From positions 434,001 through 498,000 of the forward strand of contig NZ_NEVT01000009.1 in the NCBI RefSeq assembly GCF_002261345.1: 64,000 nucleotides of DNA, given 5' to 3'. Shown one piece after another: positions 38,804 to 40,863 of the stretch. The position numbers and the translations under genes are program-made. The stretch comes from Bordetella genomosp. 2. Lineage in GTDB: Bacteria; Pseudomonadota; Gammaproteobacteria; Burkholderiales; Burkholderiaceae_B. Under the pieces are notes generated by a model. That model had not been told where the DNA came from, ran no database searches, and saw only the letters and a program-made list of their open reading frames with translations. Position 1 is the stretch's first letter, and each line of letters opens with the position of its first letter.

Positions 38804-38819
38804 TGTTTCACGTGAAACA
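38804..38819. promoter_or_regulatory. parS site 1
   Basis: Exact 16-base palindrome TGTTTCACGTGAAACA, the canonical parS sequence bound by ParB. It lies 56 bases upstream of the mnmG start, so ParB spreading could also affect mnmG transcription. Confidence 0.93.
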
Positions 38820-39137
38820 TGGGGTGGATTTGAAACGAAGAACAGCAATGGGCTGTTTGTCCGTGCCGGTGCACGGTTTGGCTGGTCGGAGCTCGACTTA
38901 AGCTTGCTGCCATGGTCCTGCTCTCATGCAGGTGGATCTCCAAAATCGGCGTCCCCGGGGGCTTGCCTATGGCCAACAAAACGTCAGTCTACGTTGGAGG
39001 ATGCTTCAGCTTCAATTGGGCGCCTGGCCTCGCATCGGGTACGGTGATATGGGGTAGCGGAGCCCTTCCAATCGTCGTACTGGGTATCGCGGTGTGCCTT
39101 GAGCATGGCGGTCGTGTCGGTTTTAGGTTCTTGAGAC

Positions 39138-39267
39138 GCTCGCGCGTGTCGGTGAGGCCTGAGTGGCCACGTCGCTCGGCTCGGGCGCGCCACCAGGCGC
39201 CCTCGGCCCCCTACGGGGGCTTCCCTCCCTCCAACTGGCCACTCAGGCCTCACCGACACGCGCGAGC
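39138..39267. repeat. long stem-loop repeat, copy A
   Basis: A perfect 32-base inverted repeat (39138-39169 with 39236-39267) encloses a 66-base GC-rich core (39170-39235). The core matches, in inverted orientation and at 65 of 66 positions, the core of copy B at 39425-39490. The arms are different from those of copy B beyond the first five bases next to the core. The core contains its own small palindrome (CCCCCTACGGGGG). No protein is encoded. Confidence 0.9.
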
Positions 39268-39391
39268 TCACAGTTTCTCTAAACGGACGCGTGACCACCA
39301 ACTACGCTCATGGCAAGAGTAGGCGGACACCGCCACGGACTAGCCACGTTGCCTAATGACGGCGGGCGTACGGCGCATGCCACTGCTGAGA

Positions 39392-39523
39392 GTCCTGGCT
39401 GGGGCCGTGAGAGCGGGTCGGCCAGTTGGAGCGAGGGAAGCCCCCGTAGGGGGCCGAGGGCGCCTGGTGGCGCGCCCGAGCCGAGCGACGTGGCCGACCC
39501 GCTCTCACGGCCCCAGCCAGGAC
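39392..39523. repeat. long stem-loop repeat, copy B
   Basis: A perfect 33-base inverted repeat (39392-39424 with 39491-39523) encloses the same 66-base core as copy A in the opposite direction. Each copy is self-complementary through its own arms. The two copies are 124 bases apart. Function unknown; a repeat-element or terminator-like origin is possible. Confidence 0.9.
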
Positions 39524-39607
39524 GGCCTACTGCAGATACTGACCACGTCGCTACTACCGCAAACACCCTCACCGACATAATGGCAGCCATGAAGATCCCA
39601 ACAGGCA

Positions 39608-40398: not shown

Positions 40399-40605
40399 TC
40401 AGAGCGGGCGAATATCGGCCGCTTGCGGTCCTTTCGGACCTTCCTTGACTTCAAACTCAACTTCCTGGCCTTCGTTCAGGCTGCGATAACCGCGACCCTG
40501 GATAGCCGAGAAGTGTGCGAATACGTCGGTGCCGCCGGCGTCCGGCGTAATGAAGCCGAAACCCTTATCGGCGTTGAACCACTTGACCTTGCCCTTCTGA
40601 ACCAT
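40399..40605 (-). CDS. cspA: cold-shock protein (CspA family)
   Basis: A 68-residue single cold-shock domain protein. RNP1 (KGFGFI) and RNP2 (VFAHFSAI) motifs are visible in [19 protein letters not shown]. The conserved start is chosen over an open extension of 68 codons upstream. These proteins bind single-stranded RNA and melt structures. The long upstream segment (40606-40863) shared with the divergent aminotransferase could hold a structured 5' leader, as in other csp genes (inference). It flanks the origin region on the side opposite mnmG. Confidence 0.95.
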
Positions 40606-40863
40606 TTGTATAGCGTCCTGATGAAAAAAAGAATGCAAGTGAATCAAGGACGCCGAAGCGAAAGGGGCCTGTGCAACACTTGAATCAACTGCGAAACTCA
40701 GCATACCCATGGCTTCGGCGGTAAACAAATAGTTGTTTACCCCTATGTCGCATTTTTTCAATTCTCCCGGCGTGGACACACACATGTCACCATCCGCCGG
40801 CCCGGCCATGGTTAGTGGGATACTTACGCGTTTCCTGTTCCCCTCTCACGCTGCTTCCTTGCC

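Follow-up and report, generated by a model that had tools for sequence, protein, structure and literature searches.

The closest described relatives of the hairpin element reported here are the REPINs, which differ from it, and the Bordetella repeat family BRE, which by its description appears to differ too. REPINs and BIMEs are, like the present element, dispersed, extragenic, inverted doublets that form hairpins. As far as the published description goes, however, a REPIN has conserved REP ends and a variable spacer, whereas in the hairpin element conservation is confined to the apical loop and the underlying stem is variable. The length given for REPs is 20–40 bp (PMC3733652), compared with ~160 nt for the hairpin unit. 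REPs and REPINs are tied to a RAYT gene, whereas the hairpin element has no RAYT link. A 5′ tag such as GTAG is a further REP feature; the hairpin element shows a conserved A before and a conserved G after its stem, plus a 3′ foot, and may or may not share such a tag. The BRE family (Hot et al. 2011), one copy of which overlaps the sRNAs BprJ1/BprJ2, is summarized in its report as 75–91 bp repeats that occur in tandem and are also found in Comamonadaceae (PMC3110155). The present element has 62–68 nt cores within ~130 nt hairpins arranged head-to-head and matches none of 299 other genomes in an order-wide sample, so that by this summary of BRE it appears to differ in layout and host range. The palindromic Bor repeats, over-represented in Bordetellae, are presented as short stem-loops of 26–30 bp (Petrillo et al. 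2006; PMC1590033); by this description they appear to differ in size and layout, and they may overlap part of the hairpin element. A literature search, with most subscription journals outside its reach, found no published description of this hairpin family.

Two further systems are relevant to the behavior of the stem. Template switching is reported to homogenise the arms of inverted repeats and to invert their spacers (PMC8604942). Monttinen and Loytynoja (2022; PMC8794818) put it forward as a process by which RNA hairpins can be maintained. The cases outlined in these two reports share with the present hairpins the homogenisation of arms, multi-base compensatory changes and inversion of the loop or spacer. 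The loop inversions they describe are rare and span 4 to 8 nt, and the yeast spacer inversions appear as 2 to 5 bp substitutions (PMC8794818, PMC8604942). The present element has inverted loops of 62–66 nt and stems of ~33 bp, and it forms a multicopy family. Integron attC sites serve recombination in the form of a folded single strand, the sequence of which is free where the structure is kept; their apical part is variable, whereas the apical domain of the hairpin element is conserved. A search of Rfam 15 yielded no family at the gathering threshold, the only hits being the plant microRNA models MIR918 (30.3 vs 268 bits) and MIR856 (28.1 vs 297), and a known RNA family was rejected because these scores lie far below the thresholds.

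The window, i.e. the whole 64 kb stretch of DNA that was analysed, contains two long stem-loops, A and B (Table 1). The original prediction described them as perfect inverted repeats of 32–33 bases that flank a shared 66-base core, 65 of 66 bases identical and in opposite orientation, and this was confirmed: an inverted-repeat search returned arms of 32 nt in A and 33 nt in B, with 100% identity and separated by 66 nt in both hairpins, and the two cores, each read on its own strand, differ at one position (98.5% identity). Scanning the whole window for long-arm inverted repeats with 54–76 nt loops returned these two and no others. A covariance model trained on 50 copies, A and B among them, matched 39136–39269 on the minus strand with 132.2 bits and 39391–39524 on the plus strand with 132.1 bits. 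The segment 39370–39545 folds with a z score of −9.2, a stability reached by none of 200 dinucleotide shuffles, whereas the 66-base core by itself is unremarkable (z = −0.4). Neither a sigma-70-like promoter nor an intrinsic terminator was found between 39050 and 39650. The nearest annotated-looking neighbor to the right of the pair is an ORF on the minus strand (40399–40809), the C-terminal part of which resembles a cold-shock protein.

Table 1 Features of the hairpin pair in the window.
Feature	Position	Strand	Description
3′ foot of hairpin A	39126–39137	minus	GTCTCAAGAACC on minus; family consensus about GYCYCAAGAACTCAA
Hairpin A, class 1	39138–39267	minus	arms 39138–39169 and 39236–39267; core 39170–39235 read on minus
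Linker between hairpins A and B	39268–39391		separates the head-to-head hairpins; length and content vary between loci
Hairpin B, class 2	39392–39523	plus	arms 39392–39424 and 39491–39523; core 39425–39490 read on plus
Proposed short helix P2, copy B	39431–39486	plus	39431–39436 with 39481–39486; tandem G.A mismatch in copy B
Apical hairpin a, copy B	39440–39454	plus	GCCCCC-GTA-GGGGGC; covaries in the family, 4 of 5 pairs changed on both sides
Apical hairpin b, copy B	39458–39477	plus	GGGCGC...GCGCCC; 5 of 6 pairs never vary, 1 changed on both sides
3′ foot of hairpin B	39524–39537	plus	foot of class 2 type

Four GTTTCACGTGAAAC-like sites, which we take to be parS, start at positions 38805, 39609, 39709 and 39775 of the window, and the two hairpins sit between the first and the second. 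The location that had been noted between such sites therefore stands, but the suggested tie to the origin or to parS does not, because other copies are dispersed in the genome; an origin-specific function was rejected on the same ground. Upstream of mnmG in the eight other genomes of the genus, a strong model match was found only at L112 (93.8 bits), with weaker matches at L113 and L107.

The complete unit of ~160 nt comprises a short 5′ foot, a stem of 31–35 bp, an apical domain of ~60–68 nt and, on the 3′ side, a foot close to GYCYCAAGAACTCAA. Two such units, of different arm class, usually face each other head to head. The core also occurs beyond this locus: BLAST with the core region returned 32 matches in the same genome, two of them incomplete at contig ends and one diverged, and the covariance model returned 31. 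All 30 complete copies, found by the core alone, have paired arms, as do 32 of the 42 loci in a set gathered without a pairing demand. The flanks of other copies are thus palindromic, the exceptions being some truncated copies such as L059. A core fragment at L046 (G002) passes into an extended poly-C tract, possibly through an error in the assembly.

Twenty-two of the 31 model matches form 11 pairs, ~255 to 540 bases apart from start to start, and in all 11 the left-hand core reads on the minus strand and its right-hand partner on the plus strand. The same arrangement holds for 16 of 16 complete pairs in genome G087, 8 of 8 in G088 and 6 of 8 in G098, where the two exceptions are loci with a flipped core. 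Every pair combines a class 1 with a class 2 hairpin, distinguished by arm sequence and feet. Among 165 copies the stem is preceded by A in 92% and followed by G in 93%; beyond this G lies the foot, then ~60 bases rich in A and C. The linkers often contain another repeat, GGTGTCAGACACC, and a literature search for this motif found no paper describing it. In two ansorpii records (L166 and L199) the same small ORF lies between the paired hairpins, and by eye it resembles the VOC/glyoxalase family.

The element is present in all nine genomes of the genus that were searched, with 8 to 53 matches each. Under stricter filters it was found in 18 of 268 genomes of the GTDB family, spread over 5 of 43 genera; the other genomes of an order-wide sample gave no match (0 of 299), and all 22 named records with the exact core pattern are Bordetella. 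A plasmid- or phage-borne element was rejected, as neither collection yielded a match when searched in 'distant' mode. A predicted ORF, from a crude ORF call, overlaps a hairpin at 3 of 21 loci. The same call placed the flanking genes in tandem at 10, convergent at 6 and divergent at 3 of the 19 loci with both neighbors; this gives no hint of a placement on the promoter side, and a regulator in 5′ regions was rejected.

The stem is 31–35 bp long in 150 of 173 copies. Its sequence differs so much between copies (median arm identity of 43% in pairwise comparison of 77 copies) that the element is not an ordinary dispersed repeat, and yet the arms stay complementary while they drift, as the original prediction had held from two copies. 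In a 50-row alignment 36 of 44 pairs have changed on both sides (31 in the long stem, 4 in hairpin a and 1 in hairpin b), and standard pairs fill 97.7% of the cells. Covariation scores 0.778 vs 0.162 for shuffled alignments, none of 500 of which reach 0.778, and versions slid out of register score at most 0.104. The Watson-Crick share per stem pair is about 96% over ~33 pairs in 173 copies, though the scan that yielded this set and the other scan-derived hairpin sets selects for well-paired arms, which biases their pairing figures upward. The suggestion that the flanks are locus-specific did not hold; the arms do not derive from local DNA, but belong to the element by inheritance and sort into two recognisable classes, one for each hairpin of a pair, common to loci genome-wide.

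The types of mismatch depend on the strand. Read on the core-plus strand, and with stem positions 5–10 omitted for their conserved mismatches, 4700 pairs in the 173 copies include 111 mismatches, of which 73 are G.T or T.G, 9 A.C or C.A, 15 A.G or G.A and 4 C.T or T.C. A smaller set (77 of 86 copies) gave 52 G.T vs 4 A.C. Since the copies lie in both orientations, this asymmetry is not predicted by replication alone, and the tolerance of G.T where A.C is not tolerated indicates that the core-plus strand likely acts as a folded molecule. G.T beats A.C in DNA hairpins too, so the wobble bias does not separate RNA from single-stranded DNA. From the pattern of substitutions, then, the core-plus strand is probably the one that is folded and used, in either of these forms. 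Covariation together with strand-specific wobble tolerance, as in structured non-coding RNA, is present; single-stranded DNA fits as well.

Comparison of the same loci between genomes relied on 21 orthologous-hairpin comparisons among three sister genomes, which partly overlap; 7 further links were dropped for dissimilar arms. Among 708 stem pairs, 633 are unchanged, 29 have changed on one side and 46 on both. The expectation for such coincident changes is 8.2, and the maximum in 2000 shuffles of position was 16; the closest two genomes alone show 16 vs 1.9 expected. In 44 of the 46 cases one Watson-Crick pair is replaced by another, and 20 of these 44 are transversions, which cannot be bridged by a G.T intermediate and speak against compensatory selection as the sole process. 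The two mechanisms named in the original prediction, compensatory selection and inverted copying of one flank across the core, thus both leave marks, in the wobble asymmetry and in the mirrored changes, respectively.

Arm lengths tell of the same coupling. Within the same genome as the window, class 2 arms are 32, 33 or 34 nt long, and in 14 of 14 copies the left and right arm agree in length. Class 1 arms are equal in 13 of 15, and the right arm is one base short in the other two, as would fit a stage before copying. Individual inspection of loci revealed three orthologous pairs (L163/L174, L178/L210 and L180/L167) in which the core is inverted while the feet and arms correspond; none of the 21 automatically linked hairpins has a flipped core. 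A flip test by foot orientation classified 166 copies as 115 canonical, 6 flipped and 45 ambiguous, but 3 of the 6 were false by eye and the background at the same cut-off was 30 matches, so the test is too weak. Another core inverted relative to its feet lies at L041 in genome G004 (1205–1336), with a normal copy 267 bases off. The excess of mirrored arm changes and the spacer inversions at three loci are as expected for template-switch (quasi-palindrome) evolution. The coincident changes, the matched length changes and the core inversions apparently point to copying from arm to arm by template switching during replication. An A.G mismatch at stem position 7 is kept in 8 of 14 class 2 copies, thus copying does not correct everything.

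The core had been regarded as fixed. It proved to vary in sequence, as a structured domain that has a covarying hairpin of its own, and it is exchanged between copies. Four of the 21 ortholog comparisons show cores with at least 8 differences over 62–66 positions while the arms differ at 1–7 of 32–35, and in 3 of these 4 cases the same genome holds a paralog that departs from the core by no more than one difference. By this comparison cores are swapped between copies and arms are not. In predicted folds the core resembles a compact junction, with two hairpins, a and b, on a short helix. This helix, P2, is a proposal: it is visible below the two apical hairpins when subtypes are folded separately, clearly in 2 of 4, and pairs perfectly in the G005 subtype when alignment rows are paired by eye. 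An automatic scan of the alignment columns for P2 did not single it out, and when the 146 distinct cores were aligned and folded together, hairpin b alone emerged.

The explanation that we consider the probable one combines the two processes: template switching, together with selection on the folded core-plus strand, would keep a drifting stem perfect. Switching between arms would transfer a mutation or an indel in one arm to its partner and occasionally invert the loop, and the core-plus strand would be selected to pair, the folded molecule being more probably RNA than single-stranded DNA. Ectopic gene conversion would spread core variants between copies and leave the outer arms behind. The element would accordingly be a dispersed hairpin of Bordetella and close relatives, mostly inherited vertically. 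As a guess, a protein may bind the apical domain and require beneath it a long rigid helix of any sequence. Either process might also act by itself. A structured RNA in which second mutations restore the stem, with no special copying, would account for the excess of G.T over A.C, for the covariation of apical hairpin a and for the 29 one-sided changes at orthologs. It is nonetheless unlikely, as the transversions among the compensated changes, the length changes matched in all class 2 copies and the core inversions argue against it, and holding ~33 pairs at this level of Watson-Crick pairing would need unusually strong selection. Conversely, functionless quasi-palindromes maintained by template switching or arm conversion, with cores homogenised by gene conversion, would produce the coincident changes, matched lengths, inversions and core exchange, and would fit the deletion of copies in sister genomes. 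Copying alone does not, however, predict mismatch types that follow the orientation of the core, and hairpin a stays paired while its sequence varies, the feet are conserved and the head-to-head layout is fixed, so that copying alone seems quite improbable.

The dispersed copies, the paired inverted layout and the strand-specific hairpin also recall a non-autonomous mobile element, now mostly immobile, with a folded strand on which a single-strand transposase would act, in the way that RAYTs act on REPs. Copy number indeed varies from 8 to 53 among the nine genomes. This origin is very unlikely on the following evidence. The Y1 transposase domain PF01797 is found in 6 of the 9 genus genomes and is absent from G003, G005 and G007, which hold 17, 53 and 13 copies; RAYT was rejected as a driver because of this mismatch, the genome richest in copies having none. 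The RAYT loci examined are flanked by a repeat other than the hairpin element. No clean empty site was found at the two loci tested in two sister genomes (L184 and L175), where the differences are deletions or replacements. Hairpins have been lost by deletion in sister genomes, once with arms left without a core and once with half a hairpin left; G088 lacks parts of both tested loci and retains the half-hairpin remnant at L184. The ORFs between widely spaced copies (L215–L217) look by eye like ordinary genes and not like transposases, and a composite transposon carrying a gene between such copies was rejected.

Returning to template switching combined with selection, a broader reading is tentative and rather less than probable: the element may represent a class of structured, multicopy hairpins not described before, which would evolve as a rule by replication template switching, with the stem a self-correcting helix free of sequence, the apical part a protein- or RNA-binding module spread by conversion, and the head-to-head pair one unit. 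Such a unit might, for example, produce outward-transcribed RNAs or form a DNA structure for recombination or for a nucleoid protein. How long RNA stems remain paired despite drift is an old question, and the case for template switching has been made chiefly on short stems. In the present family, dozens of copies in each genome, across several related species, display mirrored substitutions, length changes and loop inversions beside a strand-specific wobble signal, and the family lets the mutational and the selective parts be measured apart in one bacterial system. If the broader reading is true, the family would document, in many natural replicates, how template switching operates on long stems and 62–66 nt loops. 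The family also advises caution, as strong covariation in an alignment can partly reflect copying and not just selection on RNA.

A different repeat, GGTGTCWGACACC, flanks the Y1/RAYT genes at 4 of 6 loci (L236 in G002, L238 in G006, L239 in G001 and L240 in G000) and was not found in L235 or L237. Fourteen copies surround the RAYT gene in the same genome as the window. From this arrangement, GGTGTCWGACACC and the Y1/RAYT genes likely constitute a REP/RAYT system of Bordetella. The RAYT match at L238 carries one in-frame TGA. The GGTGTCWGACACC motif also occurs in the linkers of many hairpin pairs.
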